From the NCBI GenBank assembly GCA_947585115.1, contig CANPWW010000013.1, positions 1 through 41,324 of the forward strand: 41,324 nt of DNA, given 5' to 3'. The stretch's first letter is position 1. Each line of letters starts with the position of its first letter. A program made the position numbers and the translations under genes. Under the pieces are notes generated by a model. The model was not told the origin of the DNA. It was given only the letters and a program-made list of their open reading frames with translations, and did no database searches. Positions 1,117 to 22,358 of this stretch are shown piece after piece. This stretch comes from an uncultured Monoglobus sp. GTDB taxonomy: Bacteria; Bacillota; Clostridia; Monoglobales; Monoglobaceae.

Positions 1117-1968
1117 ATGCAGGGCTTGGTTCTGGAGGGCGGAACGTTCCGTCCGATATTTTCGTGCGGCGTTATGGACGCGCTGCTTGAGATGGATATT
1201 CACTTCCCTTATGTTATCGGAGTGTCGGCTGGGATAGCGGACGGCGTTTCATACGTTTCAAGGCAGAAGGGGCGCAATCTTGAGATAATAACCAACTACC
1301 GCCACGACAAGCGGTACATCGGAATGAGAAATTTTTTAAAGGAGCGCAGCATGTTCGGGCTTGAATTTATATATGAGACGGTGCCCAACGAGCTGATACC
1401 CTTTGACTATGACACATATTATAACAGCCCGGGCGTCGTCAAGGCGGGCGTGACCGACGCGGAGCTCGGCAGGCCGTTTTATCTTGACGCCAAGAACCCC
1501 GAGACAAACTGCGAGCTGCTTAAAGCGACCTGCGCGCTGCCTTTGGCGTTTCCGCCGATTAAGGTCGAGGGCAGGGAGTATTTTGACGGCGGCATCTGCG
1601 ACCCGATACCGGCGCGGCAGGCGGAGAAGGACGGCTGCGACAAGCTGCTTATCGTTTTGACGCGGCCCGCGAGCTACCGCAAAACGCCTTCGGGCGCCAA
1701 CAAGTTCGCGGCCAAGGTCTACCGCAAAAAATATCCGAACCTTATCGAGCCGCTGCTGACGAGGCATGATGTCTACAACAGGCAGCTGGAGTACTGCGCG
1801 TTTCTTGAAAAGCAGGGCAGGGCGGTGAGCCTGCGCCCGAGCGAGGAGGCGCAGATCGACTCCTTTGAAAAGGATATGGACAGAATCAAAGGAGTGTACC
1901 GGTATGGCTATGATCTGACGTTTGAGAACGCCGAAAGAATCCGAAATTTATTTGCTGAGAAGGGATGA
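1117..1968 (+). CDS. Patatin-like phospholipase (RssA-type)
   Basis: This 283-residue protein is a cytoplasmic patatin-like serine acyl hydrolase. The glycine-rich oxyanion segment VLEGGTFRPIF is at residues 5-15. The nucleophile is Ser37 in GVSAG, and the dyad Asp157 sits in FDGG, so both catalytic residues are intact. The family hydrolyses acyl esters of phospholipids; the real substrate of bacterial members is usually unknown. A GAGGAA ribosome site precedes the ATG. The stop overlaps the start of the downstream transporter (ATGA at 1965-1968), so the two are one operon. Length is normal for the family and there is no signal peptide. Confidence 0.9.
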   Translation: MQGLVLEGGTFRPIFSCGVMDALLEMDIHFPYVIGVSAGIADGVSYVSRQKGRNLEIITNYRHDKRYIGMRNFLKERSMFGLEFIYETVPNELIPFDYDTYYNSPGVVKAGVTDAELGRPFYLDAKNPETNCELLKATCALPLAFPPIKVEGREYFDGGICDPIPARQAEKDGCDKLLIVLTRPASYRKTPSGANKFAAKVYRKKYPNLIEPLLTRHDVYNRQLEYCAFLEKQGRAVSLRPSEEAQIDSFEKDMDRIKGVYRYGYDLTFENAERIRNLFAEKG

Positions 1969-15728: not shown

Positions 15729-15757
15729 TTGACAAACAATTACTTGTGTGATATAAT
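15729..15757 (+). promoter_or_regulatory. Orphan consensus promoter
   Basis: TTGACA (15729-15734), 17 bp, TATAAT (15752-15757), with no ORF downstream for over 1 kb. Confidence 0.7.
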
Positions 15758-16314: not shown

Positions 16315-16343
16315 TTGACAGCCAAAATCATGCGGCTTATAAT
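16315..16343 (+). promoter_or_regulatory. Second orphan consensus promoter
   Basis: TTGACA (16315-16320), 17 bp, TATAAT (16338-16343). It lies directly after the TCCCACTT direct repeats, which could be operator sites. Confidence 0.7.
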
Positions 16344-16375: not shown

Positions 16376-16705
16376 CTCATTTTAATGGGCAAACGGGCGG
16401 CAATAGATAGGCGCCCCCTTGGGGATAATCAGCAAGCTTGCTTGCGGGTTCAAAGCTATCTTTCAAAATTGCTTGCAATTTTGACTAAGAGCTTCCTTAA
16501 TGCTGCCGCCAACGGCGGCTGAGGGGGGAAGCCTAGTCTCTAGTGACTATTCCCTAGTCCCTACGTTCCCACCTCCGTCTGCGGCAAGCCGCAGCCACCT
16601 CCTCCCGGGAGGAGGCAAAAATGTGGTCGCGGGACGTCGAGGGCGCCGTTCCCTACGGTGATGGGCGAGGCAAGCGGACGGCCGCAGCCCCCACGGCATG
16701 ATAAT
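16376..16705. repeat. Hairpin-dense intergenic repeat block 3
   Basis: A run of strong inverted repeats: GCAAGCTTGCTTGC, GCCGCCAACGGCGGC, CTGCGGCAAGCCGCAG, the perfect 18-bp palindrome CCTCCTCCCGGGAGGAGG (about 16598-16615), and a GGGACG...CGTTCCC unit (16631-16652) of the same type as in the other repeat blocks. It is GC-rich compared with its flanks and has no coding frame I would support. This looks like a non-coding repeat element. Confidence 0.75.
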
Positions 16706-16803
16706 ACCTGCGTTTTCAAAAAACAATGTCCCCATATTGAAAAAATATGACTAATAATTATATGGGGGTGTTGTCAAACATAAAAGATAAGGAGTTGATA
16801 CCA

Positions 16804-16882: not shown

Positions 16883-16911
16883 TTGACAACAACTTATTGT
16901 TATGATATTAT
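16883..16911 (+). promoter_or_regulatory. Promoter of the pectate lyase leader RNA
   Basis: TTGACA (16883-16888), 17 bp, TATTAT (16906-16911). The predicted transcript starts near 16918, exactly where the first arm of the leader's closing stem begins. Confidence 0.8.
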
Positions 16912-16917
16912 ATATTT

Positions 16918-17091
16918 GCAACACAAGTTAATAATATTGACCTGATACTTTGGAATGGGATCGGCATTTTTGTCATAAGATAAAAATGCGTTCTCCATGA
17001 ATTTGATTCTGTTCCAAATTCGTTTTAACTTGTGTTGCAGCAGTCGGAGAATGTGTTTTTACGTGTTGTCCGACCGGGCAGCACGTTTTTT
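16918..17091 (+). ncRNA. Candidate riboswitch-like structured leader with terminator
   Basis: A long 5' leader with riboswitch organisation. A perfect 14-bp closing stem joins 16918-16931 to 17025-17038. Inside it lie an 11-bp hairpin with an ATAA loop (16964-16989; one G-T pair) and a second hairpin, GAATTTG/CAAATTC (16999-17005 with 17015-17021). TTTGGAA (16949-16955) can instead pair with TTCCAAA (17012-17018). Downstream, 17061-17071 pairs with 17076-17086 (11 bp) before a T run: a strong terminator. In the alternative fold, GTGTTGC (17032-17038, right arm of the closing stem) pairs with GCAGCAC (17078-17084), and GTCGGA (17043-17048) with TCCGAC (17069-17074), destroying the terminator. 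I do not recognise a known riboswitch class. A stable closing stem should favour termination. Confidence 0.65.
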
Positions 17092-17092
17092 G
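17061..17092 (+). terminator. Attenuator-type terminator before the pectate lyase gene
   Basis: ACGTGTTGTCC pairs with GGGCAGCACGT around GACC, followed by TTTTT. It ends 40 bases before the start codon, so it controls read-through and does not end a gene. Confidence 0.85.
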
Positions 17093-17131
17093 TTTAAAAA
17101 TAAAATCATAAAGAAAAAAGGAGGAAATTGT

Positions 17132-20100
17132 ATGAAGTTAAAACAAATGTGTTTGGTTTTTGCGGCGGCGCTGATTTTAAGTTTGGCGGTCTGCGCGGCG
17201 GTTTTTGCCGAAACCTCGGGTGATTTTGAGTATCAGATCAACTCGGACGGCACAACGGCCGCGATCACTCGGTACACCGGCAGGGATGAGGCGCTTGTCA
17301 TACCGCCGGAGATCGACGGCTACATAGTGACCGACCTGAAAATCTCGAGCGGAAACCCGAACGTCACAAGCGTCTCGATCCCGGATTCGGTCACCAATAT
17401 TACGCGAAGTTCAATAACGCTTTTGACAAATCTCGCTGAGATAACCGTGTCAAACGGCAGCGAAGCATATTCGAGCGCGGACGGAATACTGTATGACAAG
17501 GACATGACGCGGCTCATCGCGTGCCCGAGGAAAAAATCCGCGGATACATACGTTGTGCCCGACAGCGTTAAAACAATCAGCGTTCAGGCGTTTACGAATA
17601 ACTCGGGAATAGACGCGATCGTGCTGCCCGAGGGGCTTCAGGCAATAGAGGACGCCGCTTTCGTAAACTGCGCCGCTGTCGTGAATATTCCGTCGAGCGT
17701 TACGGAAATCGGCACGGGCGCTTTCGGAAGAAAGAAATTGAGGGAGATCGTTCTGTCGTCCGATAACAAAAATTTTGTGATATCGGACAATGTGCTGTAC
17801 AGCGCCGATATGACGCGCCTTCTGCTCTATTCCGACGAGAAAACCGACGCGGAGCTGAAACTTCCCGAGACGGTCGCCTCGATCGATAATTACGCTTTTT
17901 ACGGGAACCGTAATCTAACGTCTGCATATGTGCCCGACAGCGTGACCAAGCTTGGAACCTACGCGTTTTTAACATGCGCGAATCTTCGGGAGGCGAGACT
18001 TCCGGATTCGATCACCGTTATCCCAACCGCGACTTTTAACGGATGCGACCTTAGATATTTCGAGGTCGGCAAAAATGTCACAAAAATAGGGAACAACGCA
18101 TTTGAAGGCTGTTATGAATTGGCGATATCAATACCCGAAAGTGTGAACGAAATAGGCCTCAGGGCGTTCTCAACAGCCTCAAACGGCACAACCACAATAT
18201 ACAGCGTGGCGGGCTCATACGCCGAGACCTACGCGTCGGAAAACAATATTCCGTTCGCTGATATTTCGACAATGCCGACACCCGAACCGCACGGGACCGC
18301 AACGCCCGAACCGCCGCTTCCCACGGGCGAGGCCGACGGCTGGAAGTATACCGAGAACGCGGACGGCACGATAACGCTCAACGCGTACACCCTCGGTTCC
18401 GCGCGGAAGATCGAAATTCCCGCCGAGCTCGGCGGAAAGACCGTGACCGCGTTGGAGGGACAGCTGTTTACCGACATTTCTTCAAGTTTATTCCTGTCAG
18501 ATGTGACGCTGCCTGACACGATAAAGAAAATCGGGACCAATGCTTTCAGGAACTGCACAAATTTGAGCTCGATCAATTTTCCCGAGGGACTGACCGAAAT
18601 AGGCGCCGGCGCGTTTATAAGCTGCAACTCCCTAAAGAGCGCGCCTATCCCCGATAGTGTGACGGCCATAGGCGAAAACGCGTTTTACGGTTCGGGCCTG
18701 ACAAGCGTGACAATCCCTAAAAACGTGGAAAGTCTTGCCGCAAGCGCTTTCGGCAGCTGCCGCGGTCTGCCATCAATTGACGTCGCGCCCGAAAATCCCA
18801 ACTACGAGTCGGCGGACGGCGTGCTGTACACCAAGGGTAAGACCGAGCTGCTTATGTATCCATACGCGAAGCCCGACGCCGAATATACTCTTCCCGCCTC
18901 GGTGACGGCGATAAACGACGCGGCGCTCAGATTCTGCCCGAATATCGTCTCGATCACCATAGCGGACGGGAACCAAAACTTCAAGGCGGAAAGCGGCGTT
19001 CTGTTTTCAGGCGATATGACGCTTTTGATAAAATATCCTCAGAGCAAGACGGGAGCGTCTTACAAGGTTCCCGATTCGGTGACCGAGATCGGCTCTTACG
19101 CTTTTATACAGAACCCCAATATCAAATCGGTAAGCGGAGCGAATGTAAAAAAGATAGATCAGCAGGCGTTCAACAGCGCGGCTGTCGAGACAGCGGATTT
19201 TCCGGAGGCGATCGAGCTTGAAACCTCGGCGTTCGCGGCGACGAAACTGAAGAATCTCGACGGTTTCGATAAACTTTGGACCATAGGTAAGTCGGCGTTC
19301 AGAGGCTGCGCCGAGCTTACGTCGATACCCGCGAAACAAATCGGGACCGTAGGCGAGATCGCGTTTGCCGAAACGGGTTTGACTTCGATCAATTTGAACG
19401 GCATAGTCGAAGATATCGGCGCAAATGCTTTCTCAAACTGCCGCTCTCTGACAAGCGTTAAGTGGAGCGCTCGTGTGAACGCGATCCCCGAGAGCGCGTT
19501 TGAGGGCTGCTCCGCGTTGGCGAATATTGAAATACCTGAAAATGTTGTGTCTGTAGGCGCAAACGCGTTCTCGGGCTGCGGCAGCCTCGCGGATGTGTAT
19601 TACACGGGCATCGAGCCGCGATGGAAGATAATCGCGATAGCGAGTGGAAACGAGCCGCTGACCAAAGCAAATGTACACTTCGGTGAGCAGCTTCCCGAAA
19701 CTCCGCCTCCGGCGACATCAACGCCCGAGCCGACCGTAGCGCCGACACCAACGGCGAAACCGACACCCACGCCGATTCCGAAGATCACTCCGGCGCCGGC
19801 CACGGCAACGCCCGAACCTCCAAATGATATGCCTTTTAAAATAACCGGAATATCCGGCGGTTCGATTAGCATGGCCACGAGTAACGACGTCGAAAAGGGC
19901 ACTCCCTACACCTTGATCGCCGCGAAATACAAGGACGATATACTGCTTGATATTGCCATTGAAGACAAACAGACGGAAAACGACGGCGGTATCGGCTTTA
20001 CCGAAAAAATGAGCGAAATGCCGGCTGCTTTGAGAGAGGGCGAATATATTAAAGTAATGGTTTGGTCAAACGCGGACTCATGCGAGCCGCTCGCTTATCC

Positions 20101-21697
20101 CAGAACGACCACGCCGCTCCTCAAAGCCTTCCCCGGAGCCGAGGGCGGCGGACAGTTCGCGATCGGCGGACGGCGGAATTATGCCACGGAAATATACCAT
20201 GTCACCAATTTAAACGACAGCGGCCCCGGGTCGCTGCGCGACGCGGTCTCCAAGGCGGGCAGAATAGTGGTGTTCGACGTGGGCGGCACGATAAATCTTG
20301 AAAAGTCGATAAGGTATATCGGAGGCGTGACGATCCTCGGCCAGACCGCACCCGGCGACGGAATAACTATAACCGGCGCCAACCTTGAGCTTGACGGCAG
20401 CAATGTTATCCGTTATTTGAGAATAAGGCCGACGTTTAAGAACAAGATCGAGGCCGACGGCCTCGGAGGATACGGCGACACGCGAACGATAATCGACCAC
20501 TGCTCGGTGAGCTACAGCATTGACGAGTGCATTTCGTTTTATGAGTACACCGATTTCACGCTCCAGAACTGCATAAGCTCCGAGAGCCTCAAAAACGGCG
20601 GTCACTCCAAGGGCGCCCACGGCTACGGCGGCATCTGGGGAGGCACGAACGCGAGCTTCCACCACAACCTGCTGGCGAGCCACGACAGCAGAAACCCGAG
20701 ACTCGCGGCGGGTCGTTTAGAGGGTGACATTGATTATGATATGAGCGAGCAAACGACTCTGACCGATCTTCGCAACAACATAATCTACAACTGGGGCGGC
20801 AACTCGGCCTACGGCGGTCAGGGTGCCATGGCCGCGAACATAATTAACAGCTACTATAAGCCCGGCCCGTCGACAACCAGCCACCGCTCGAGAATATTTC
20901 AGACGACGTCCACCGGAAACGGACAAACCTCAAAATGGGCGACCGACCTGTATGTTGACGGAAACTATATGGACGGAAACCAAAGCGTGACCGCCGACAA
21001 CTCAAAGGGCGTTGATCACGACAGCGCGGCGGCGAAATACTATGTCTGGACAAAGGACAATATAACCGACGAGGCGAAAGCTGTGCATTTCAAATACGAG
21101 AACGACTATCCGGTGACAACTCAGACCGCTGAGGAGACATATAACACATTGCTCGACCACATCGGAGCGTCGCTGCCGAGGCGCGACGAAACCGACGCGA
21201 GAATAATCAGCGAGGTAAGAAACGGACAAGGCCGAATAATCGACAACGAGGCCGAGGTCGGAGGCGTTATGCAGTATGAGGCGGTGTACCGCCCGTTCGA
21301 GATCCCGCAGGATTGGAAAGACGAAAACGATATGGGAGACGTCTACGACGGAGACATAGTTCCGAGCGGCAAGTGGAAGGGATACACATGGATAGAGGCC
21401 TATGTCAATGATTGGACCGAGCGGCAGGAAAATCCGACCAATCCCGATGTTACCGCAAGCGCAAGCGCAAGCGGCAATAATATAGCGGTTTCCGCCGAGG
21501 CATCGCCCGTCGGCAACAGCCCGATAACAAAGATAGTGATCTACGACGGCGACAAAATAATATCCGAGCATGAAACGGACAAGGTGAATGTCAACATAGT
21601 TAGCGCCGAGGCCGGAAAGCACTACATCTCAGCCCTCGCCTACAACAAAAAAGGCGAAAGCACAAGAAGCACCATCGCAGTAGTTGAGGTGAAGTAA
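17132..21697 (+). CDS. Secreted multidomain protein: LRR (BspA type) repeats and PL1-like pectate lyase
   Basis: A 1521-residue exported protein. Signal peptide about 1-27 (ending VFAE). Residues about 50-375 and 400-850 are two blocks of type-5 leucine-rich (BspA-like) repeats with recurring 'P-x-S-V-T-x-I-G' and 'F-x-x-C' units, divided by a Pro/Thr linker. A second TPEP-rich linker spans 853-898. A module at 900-990 ends in KVMVWSNADSCEPLA. Residues about 993-1400 are a pectate lyase-like beta-helix (FPGAEGGG start; IDHCSVSYSIDE; HHNLLASHDSRNPR), as in PL1, which cuts polygalacturonate by beta-elimination. The C-terminus (about 1435-1521) is Ig-like. I start at 17132 because GGAGG precedes it; an in-frame ATG at 16997 lies inside the leader RNA. 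No SLH or dockerin is present. Confidence 0.9.
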   Translation: MKLKQMCLVFAAALILSLAVCAAVFAETSGDFEYQINSDGTTAAITRYTGRDEALVIPPEIDGYIVTDLKISSGNPNVTSVSIPDSVTNITRSSITLLTNLAEITVSNGSEAYSSADGILYDKDMTRLIACPRKKSADTYVVPDSVKTISVQAFTNNSGIDAIVLPEGLQAIEDAAFVNCAAVVNIPSSVTEIGTGAFGRKKLREIVLSSDNKNFVISDNVLYSADMTRLLLYSDEKTDAELKLPETVASIDNYAFYGNRNLTSAYVPDSVTKLGTYAFLTCANLREARLPDSITVIPTATFNGCDLRYFEVGKNVTKIGNNAFEGCYELAISIPESVNEIGLRAFSTASNGTTTIYSVAGSYAETYASENNIPFADISTMPTPEPHGTATPEPPLPTGEADGWKYTENADGTITLNAYTLGSARKIEIPAELGGKTVTALEGQLFTDISSSLFLSDVTLPDTIKKIGTNAFRNCTNLSSINFPEGLTEIGAGAFISCNSLKSAPIPDSVTAIGENAFYGSGLTSVTIPKNVESLAASAFGSCRGLPSIDVAPENPNYESADGVLYTKGKTELLMYPYAKPDAEYTLPASVTAINDAALRFCPNIVSITIADGNQNFKAESGVLFSGDMTLLIKYPQSKTGASYKVPDSVTEIGSYAFIQNPNIKSVSGANVKKIDQQAFNSAAVETADFPEAIELETSAFAATKLKNLDGFDKLWTIGKSAFRGCAELTSIPAKQIGTVGEIAFAETGLTSINLNGIVEDIGANAFSNCRSLTSVKWSARVNAIPESAFEGCSALANIEIPENVVSVGANAFSGCGSLADVYYTGIEPRWKIIAIASGNEPLTKANVHFGEQLPETPPPATSTPEPTVAPTPTAKPTPTPIPKITPAPATATPEPPNDMPFKITGISGGSISMATSNDVEKGTPYTLIAAKYKDDILLDIAIEDKQTENDGGIGFTEKMSEMPAALREGEYIKVMVWSNADSCEPLAYPRTTTPLLKAFPGAEGGGQFAIGGRRNYATEIYHVTNLNDSGPGSLRDAVSKAGRIVVFDVGGTINLEKSIRYIGGVTILGQTAPGDGITITGANLELDGSNVIRYLRIRPTFKNKIEADGLGGYGDTRTIIDHCSVSYSIDECISFYEYTDFTLQNCISSESLKNGGHSKGAHGYGGIWGGTNASFHHNLLASHDSRNPRLAAGRLEGDIDYDMSEQTTLTDLRNNIIYNWGGNSAYGGQGAMAANIINSYYKPGPSTTSHRSRIFQTTSTGNGQTSKWATDLYVDGNYMDGNQSVTADNSKGVDHDSAAAKYYVWTKDNITDEAKAVHFKYENDYPVTTQTAEETYNTLLDHIGASLPRRDETDARIISEVRNGQGRIIDNEAEVGGVMQYEAVYRPFEIPQDWKDENDMGDVYDGDIVPSGKWKGYTWIEAYVNDWTERQENPTNPDVTASASASGNNIAVSAEASPVGNSPITKIVIYDGDKIISEHETDKVNVNIVSAEAGKHYISALAYNKKGESTRSTIAVVEVK

Positions 21698-22073: not shown

Positions 22074-22085
22074 AAGTATACTATA

Positions 22086-22358
22086 TAAATGCGTTTGAGC
22101 GGAAACAAGTAGATGCGTGAAAGTCTTGAGAGAGTTGCCGGGAGCTGCGAGGCAATGACGGAAGCGTTTTCGAATACATTCCGCGAGCAGTGCACCGAAA
22201 GGGTTTGAGCCGCCTCAGTAGGCTGCAACGGGAGTTCCCGTCACAGAACATGGGTATTGATGATACCTTCTGAGGCCGCGGCCGTGAGGCAGCGGTGAAT
22301 TGAGGTGGTACCACGGGTGAAGCTCGTCCTCTGTTTAAAAATAGAGAGCGGGTTTTTT
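22086..22358 (+). ncRNA. Tyrosine-type T-box riboswitch
   Basis: A T-box leader that senses uncharged tRNA. Stem I closes with GCGGAA (22099-22104) and TTCCGC (22179-22184). The AGTA motif is at 22108-22111 and the AGAGAG bulge and distal loop around 22130-22155. The specifier-loop strand GAATACA places the codon TAC at 22175-22177, which reads tyrosine. The T-box core (AGGTGGTACCACGG, 22303-22316) has T after TGG at 22306-22308, and T pairs with an A73 discriminator, as in tRNA-Tyr. A terminator (CTCGTCCTCT with AGAGAGCGGG, then TTTTTT) ends the leader. Low charged tRNA-Tyr should switch the downstream symporter on. Confidence 0.9.

Follow-up and report, generated by a model that had tools for sequence, protein, structure and literature searches.

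A widespread candidate attenuator RNA in uncultured gut Clostridia and its possible antisense RNA input

What controls a large pectate lyase gene in an uncultured Monoglobus sp., and does the control belong to that gene? The window analyzed here, a stretch of 41,324 nucleotides (GenBank assembly GCA_947585115.1, contig CANPWW010000013.1), carries such a gene behind a highly structured leader. A preliminary description, made from the letters alone, took this leader for a possible riboswitch of no known class that serves the pectate lyase gene, for which a second messenger or a sugar acid would be a fitting ligand.

The whole leader element is linked to a promoter and spans positions 16918-17090 (Table 1). 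Its predicted minimum free energy is -67.8 kcal/mol vs. -43.1 (sd 4.1) for shuffled sequences (z -6.0; 0/200 shuffles as stable). Much of the anatomy first described was recovered. The arms of the closing stem, 16917-16931 and 17025-17039, are 100% complementary, the terminator has the 11 pairs that had been counted, and the spacing from the -10 box puts the probable transcription start at 16918, the first base of P1, or nearby. The pseudoknot that had been suspected is real and longer than supposed, with 15/15 pairs (G-U pairs included) between 16982-16996 and 17046-17060; we call it the long-range helix. The “two hairpins” placed inside the stem were a loose description, as the interior forms a single extended rod of P2 and P3, whose 3' bulge is kept across the family. 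The pectate lyase domain was confirmed, behind leucine-rich repeats (LRR) of BspA type.

Table 1. Parts of the leader and the gene behind it, in window coordinates.
Feature	Position	Strand	Basis
Promoter, sigma-70 type, TTGACA-17-TATTAT with extended -10 (TG)	16883..16911	+	sequence; placement shared by the family
P1 5' strand	16918..16931	+	complementarity; P1 covaries at 13/13 pairs
P2 5' strand, partner 17005-17018	16949..16962	+	fold, 79% complementary; P2 covaries at 8/8 pairs (model-fitted alignments)
P3 hairpin GCATTTTTGTC/GATAAAAATGC	16964..16989	+	complementarity, family covariation
Strand C, the P3 3' strand plus conserved bulge (proposed toehold), AAAAATGCGTTCTCC	16982..16996	+	15/15 pairs with 17046-17060; family covariation
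P2 3' strand	17005..17018	+	fold and complementarity
P1 3' strand (P1')	17025..17038	+	complementarity
Linker, pairing with strand C (long-range helix) or the 5' side of the terminator (antiterminator)	17043..17060	+	
Antiterminator hairpin, closing pairs GUCGGA/UCCGAC (17043-17048/17069-17074)	17043..17074	+	fold and family alignment
Intrinsic terminator, 11-bp stem (17061-17086), then U tract	17061..17090	+	
Shine-Dalgarno GGAGG	17120..17124	+	sequence
Downstream gene, encoding a secreted protein of 1521 aa with BspA-type LRRs and a pectate lyase domain	17132..21697	+	LRR_5; PDB 9buj pectate lyase, E 8.4e-60

The window holds two further perfect promoter matches (TTGACA-17-TATAAT; 15729-15757 and 16315-16343, + strand); they lie in a long intergenic region, and neither is followed by an evident gene. 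A T-box leader lies at 22085-22334 (+ strand, 105.8 bits) and precedes a gene for a sodium:solute symporter, whose called start (22305) falls inside the T-box; the real start is therefore probably later.

As the preliminary description had it, the element belongs to no known class. Rfam 15 at the gathering score gave no match over the element in the window and at 16 further loci, neither to the T-box (RF00230) nor to the c-di-GMP riboswitch (GEMM) nor to any other model, all hits lying outside of it; in E-value mode (window, four homologues and L149), overlapping hits had E-values of 0.2 or worse, far below gathering. On these scans a known riboswitch or leader class was ruled out. Full-text searches over the main text of openly available papers found no description of the element. 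A word search of PMC11109978 had no hits, and BspA, LRR, leucine-rich and pseudoknot go unmentioned in the text of PMC8040213 that was searched. The text of PMC8040213 presents large, mostly unnamed sets of candidate structured RNAs from the human microbiome; as these come from a similar habitat, the present family may be among them.

Relatives were initially found by DNA search within the same genus and family. Six of them were used to build a covariance model (R1), and 80 matches a refined one (R2). R1 (E ≤ 0.1) recovered the element in 34/38 genomes of the window's family, and R2 (E ≤ 1e-4) in 36/51 genomes of the order; the window's own family accounts for 35 of the 36, and one (G042) belongs to another. 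At the level of the class, 74/291 genomes had the element, in a patchy distribution: 64 of these 74 fall in 18 families other than the window's. The phylum sample (398 genomes, E ≤ 1e-5), which serves as a specificity control, yielded the window's own genome and 0/397 others, in a less sensitive search that scored eight candidates per genome (eight copies were seen in the window's genome) and in a sample with some members of the same class. One conserved stretch of the element occurs in 43 named records, comprising 41 gut MAGs with Oscillospiraceae or Clostridia labels, one Candidatus Avimonoglobus and one record labelled Bacteroides; the labels point to Clostridia as the host class. A plasmid or phage origin was considered and rejected: no plasmid matched, and one exact pattern had no counterpart in IMG/VR. 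Two faecal records labelled “phage”, both unannotated, were retrieved.

At E ≤ 0.001, R2 matches the window's genome 20 times; one of these matches is the antisense strand of the window copy, leaving ~19 copies. Twelve of these share 70-87% identity over 66 pairs (gaps excluded), and no near-identical, recently amplified copies were found among the 12. Across the family, a promoter stands at the window's distance in 162/168 members vs. 26.9 in shuffled upstream sequences, with 4 nt between the -10 box and the element start in 134 members and 5 nt in 25; the promoter-bearing members have a 17-nt spacer in 152 cases and the TG in 155. Tandem elements occur in L072, L074, L075, L163, L168 and L186, each with its own terminator and, where inspected, its own promoter. 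The block at 16690-16780 of the window, upstream of the element, sits in G002 downstream of a 93%-identical element (L007) that no LRR gene follows, which suggests loss or relocation of the element-gene unit. The many copies per genome, some of them in tandem, and this different placement in G002 would fit a MITE-like transposable palindromic repeat with no regulatory role. Such a repeat is hardly credible, however, given own-genome copies that have diverged while their structures covary, a fixed promoter spacing, and a phylum sample free of matches beyond the class. The preliminary description had named a transposable repeat found away from this gene as the contrary case; copies do exist elsewhere, but their divergence and constant promoter spacing give them the look of a dispersed regulon.

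Two other neighbors of the element are recorded here as observations. In L153, a Gut-1 RNA (RF01706), an orphan small RNA, lies at 1877-1948 (- strand), ~245 bases from the element. In L068 (own genome, C2:37240-37372, - strand), a gene-less element is convergent with a gene that by eye resembles hpf/raiA, and its antisense-like motif (see below) is weak.

Compensatory changes, which the preliminary description had proposed to look for, were found in homologues. In a plain MAFFT alignment of 47 members, P1 has 96.8% of cells paired with covariation at every pair, the long-range helix 94.7% with double changes at six pairs, and the terminator 93.2%. Among 66 members from other families, outside the training set of R2, P1, P2 and P3 are paired at 98.1, 92.0 and 96.2%, respectively (model-fitted alignment), and the long-range helix, which is absent from the model, at 95.5%, with 48 double-change cells vs. 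17.5 (sd 3.6) after shuffling. Two loci missed by the model (L287, UUCC/GGGG; L323, UUCC/GGAA) keep this helix with bases changed on both sides. Treated as a simple duplex, it exceeds the P3 hairpin in stability in 162/167 members, a comparison that does not include the loop cost of the pseudoknot.

The preliminary description had also noted the pairing that closes the antiterminator. This pairing exists in the window; over the family, the helix between linker and terminator 5' arm is paired at 85.8% vs. 82.4% when shuffled, a modest excess, and in two of five covariation measures (covarying-pair and pair-type numbers) it is not above shuffles. In a swap test, own strands paired better than swapped ones for both helices that compete for the linker, -13.4 (own strands) vs. 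-10.8 (swapped) for the long-range helix and -13.7 vs. -11.2 for the antiterminator; since both use the linker, each partly inherits the conservation of the other, and related sequences exceed shuffles somewhat even without structure. Sequence conservation runs through the linker, with a conserved GGAG, and the terminator, and the bulge has a conserved CUCU.

A second pairing that had been proposed as the switch, between the 3' arm of P1 (17032-17038) and the terminator (17078-17084), can form in the window and is not conserved in the family: over 47 members it is paired at 78.7% vs. 78.2% in shuffles, 196/500 of which score as high. A small excess in the swap test (-8.33 own vs. -7.76 swapped, sd of means 0.15) we put down to relatedness. 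What stands of the earlier reading is thus a structured cis-regulatory leader of attenuator design, with a different pair of exclusive folds. The family combines a conserved structured domain with expression-platform folds that, by their pairing, would be exclusive because strands are shared; as the linker could form the antiterminator instead of the long-range helix, the RNA looks like a strand-exchange attenuator. On this comparative evidence, we consider it very probable that the family is one of attenuators as such.

The genes behind the element bear on what it might respond to. The next ORF is on the same strand in 130/168 members, and in 109 of these it starts between -45 and +150 nt relative to the end of the terminator (0-59 nt past it in 79); ORFs were called by a mechanical rule that overlooks some genes and invents others, and several of the 59 members with “no close ORF” do have one. 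Of 107 candidate downstream proteins, 97 were scanned for families (ten were left out as apparently spurious or near-duplicate), giving 35 with LRR_5, eight with Cu_amine_oxidN1, five of MazE/AbrB type, two with SLH and others scattered, with no single metabolic or signalling theme. A signal-peptide-like N terminus was predicted for 53/69 downstream proteins of at least 100 aa vs. 38/273 other proteins of the same loci, by a simple rule and with paralogues inflating the count. The genes behind the element mostly encode exported or small unknown proteins, with no common pathway. A leader dedicated to pectate lyase is ruled out by the many other genes behind its copies, and the idea that for that enzyme it senses a second messenger or a sugar acid finds no support.

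Two small unknown protein families recur downstream of the element, a Cys-rich gene and a 77-aa gene (30 of 43 and 30 of 39 matches, respectively, were fetched and scanned). The element model matches directly upstream in 15 of the 30 Cys-rich loci and eight of the 30 77-aa loci, one match being weak in each set, and one more copy in each was added by eye (L287 and L323). Many of the loci in which no copy was detected have instead a divergent gene that by eye resembles an XRE-type repressor. The Cys-rich family (MIIDVTGI.LTPGN.GKDC; L183:2842-3054, L265-L294) is found behind either the element or this repressor-like gene.

In an orphan riboswitch, P1-P2-P3 and the pseudoknot would be a small-molecule aptamer whose binding decides between the long-range helix with terminator and the antiterminator. 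The conserved structure with its pseudoknot and conserved unpaired segments, the leader position with a terminator before genes, and the tandem copies would all suit it. We nevertheless regard it as unlikely, although it is the strongest of the rivals, because the downstream genes share no pathway, the conservation through linker and terminator is unusual for an expression platform, P1 sequences differ widely inside one genome, and gene-less copies carry antisense motifs (below). As a signal, c-di-GMP is further disfavored. GGDEF hits were found in 27/38 genomes of the family, and some element-rich genomes have none: G011 (94% complete, 22 R2 matches) gave no GGDEF hit at 1e-8, nor did G014, G019, G028, G031 and G033, whose completeness is 79-89%; most such genomes are incomplete.

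Proteins can also set termination on their leaders, as do PyrR, LicT and LoaP. An RNA-binding protein that reads the conserved bulge or linker would be in keeping with a multi-copy regulon of mostly exported proteins, with the conserved GGAG and CUCU, and with the repressor-like divergent gene that often replaces the element at homologues of the small genes. A target of this type would leave the antisense motifs and the diversified P1 unexplained, and we judge it improbable, clearly more so than the riboswitch.

A search for the ends of inverted-repeat cassettes behind genes, with each copy's own P1'-linker as query, found nothing above noise in gene-bearing copies and led to a motif in gene-less ones. 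This motif, ~30 nt antisense to the family P1' and linker, lies just past the terminator and is usually followed by another hairpin. By a rule applied to the 205 members (of 209) whose downstream sequence was long enough, it is present in 19/70 gene-less non-tandem members vs. 1/125 gene-bearing and 0/10 tandem members (Fisher p = 8.5e-9; threshold-free rank test p = 2e-12), and in 0/205 in the sense orientation or in shuffles. The lone gene-bearing copy with the motif (L112) has an ORF of just 41 aa. The threshold was chosen after earlier scores were known, 8 of the 19 motif copies come from genomes that were sampled further since the motif had already been seen there, and the 51/70 gene-less copies below threshold include copies with genes missed by the ORF rule.

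Gene-less copies have an antiterminator and a long-range helix that are as strong or stronger (109 vs. 48 members). They keep all helices, and their promoter, structure and terminator are self-contained, as expected of a stand-alone, trans-acting small RNA behind which downstream genes are expressed by leaky read-through. The frequent same-strand ORF start near the terminator argues against this, and an antiterminator would be purposeless in a simple small RNA; we give this explanation very little weight, though more than a transposable repeat.

If the motifs act as antisense RNAs, they might match copies in their own genome. In six well-sampled genomes, a same-genome copy ranked in the top three of ~208 targets for 12/32 gene-less regions vs. 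4.1 expected by label permutation (p = 0.002); the 12 include the tandem neighbor L074, which is trivial, and the weak L332 (-17.3 kcal/mol) and L372 (-14.1 kcal/mol). Gene-bearing regions gave 5/23 vs. 3.0 (p = 0.18) in the same test. In a stricter repeat without tandem cases, the count for gene-less regions is 11/29 vs. 3.75 expected (p = 0.002). For strong-match regions, with targets and labels restricted to five genomes in one genus, the own genome came first or second in 15/21 vs. 7.7 (p = 0.0015), first in 8 vs. 4.2 (p = 0.047) and within three in 15 vs. 10.5 (p = 0.045). Over 18 versions of the test, p ranged from 0.0005 to 0.167 (0.018 to 0.047 for best-match-only versions), with nearly all tested regions from one genus and the hypothesis drawn from the same data. 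Earlier tests had given a combined p of 0.005 (fewer targets) and then, in a second, 0.00015, with class-B lists picked by eye; the later motif and matching tests were rule-based, with L375 dropped as a poor match. Identical copies had been removed from the first member set (102 distinct of 111), which left G031 with eight of its nine copies as labelled targets.

The best antisense-target pairs are L138 to L367, L329 to L074a, L112 to L330 and L074b to L134, the last ranking second behind the sister-genome counterpart of L134, L333. For the motifs of L107, L181, L198 and L041, the best-pairing copy lies in another genome. That of L328 (G031) has its best target in L369 of the sister genome G028 and pairs poorly with own-genome copies. 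With such antisense stretches next to gene-less members and these pairings, we regard a putative RNA input to some of the family as likely. No antisense partner was identified for the window's own copy.

Our preferred reading is a transcription attenuator with antisense RNA input. The strong promoter would start the RNA at P1, and P1, P2 and P3 would fold first. On the OFF route, the linker would pair with the bulge of P3 as a toehold and branch-migrate along the P3 3' strand to give the 15-bp long-range helix; the antiterminator would then be blocked, the terminator would form and the gene would be OFF. On the ON route, a linker free of P3 would pair with the terminator 5' arm as antiterminator, turning the gene ON. 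The helices and the sharing of strands come from the comparative evidence, and we infer the folding order and the ON/OFF direction. The input would most likely be base pairing by other family members: a gene-less copy read through its own terminator would yield a ~30-nt antisense RNA to a P1'-linker, which would pair with P1' and linker of the copy with the matching P1, block its antiterminator and hold it OFF. P1, which varies and covaries, would serve as the address. For this mechanism in full, in a new multi-copy RNA family of Clostridia, we see the chances as evenly balanced.

Several known systems resemble parts of this scheme. In plasmids pT181 and pIP501, antisense RNA to a leader forces termination through exclusive antiterminator and terminator folds. 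The element has, as judged by sequence, a leader with such folds; it differs in being chromosomal and in many copies, in that the candidate antisense RNAs would come from separate loci that follow further copies of this attenuator, and in a P1 part of the antisense that varies like an address. In ZTP, fluoride and preQ1 riboswitches, a pseudoknot and strand displacement set the terminator; here too a pseudoknot with a segment after P1 is proposed to set terminator formation by strand exchange, in an element that, unlike those, has no known ligand, metabolic gene link or Rfam match and conserves the sequence of linker and terminator. T-boxes are likewise multi-copy attenuators in which an RNA partner (here a candidate one) chooses between terminator and antiterminator, but the element has no RF00230 match and the T-box of the window is separate from it.

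More tentatively, and with doubts that outweigh our confidence, the copies may form an RNA-only chromosomal network of up to two dozen attenuators per genome with P1 addresses, some driving genes and some antisense RNAs, in cascades with no dedicated protein regulator. In G031, L329 to L074a and L074b to L134 would be example links of such a cascade.

The element represents a family of folded RNAs that is widespread in gut bacteria and apparently undescribed, and it is directly testable in vitro with short RNAs. If the family is what it seems, uncultured gut Clostridia would have a so far undescribed layer of gene control that stands before surface adhesins and plant-fibre enzymes. Addressable RNA logic is known mainly from engineering. 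If the antisense part is true, the family would be a natural case of it, and the strong diversification of the closing stem between copies would be explained.
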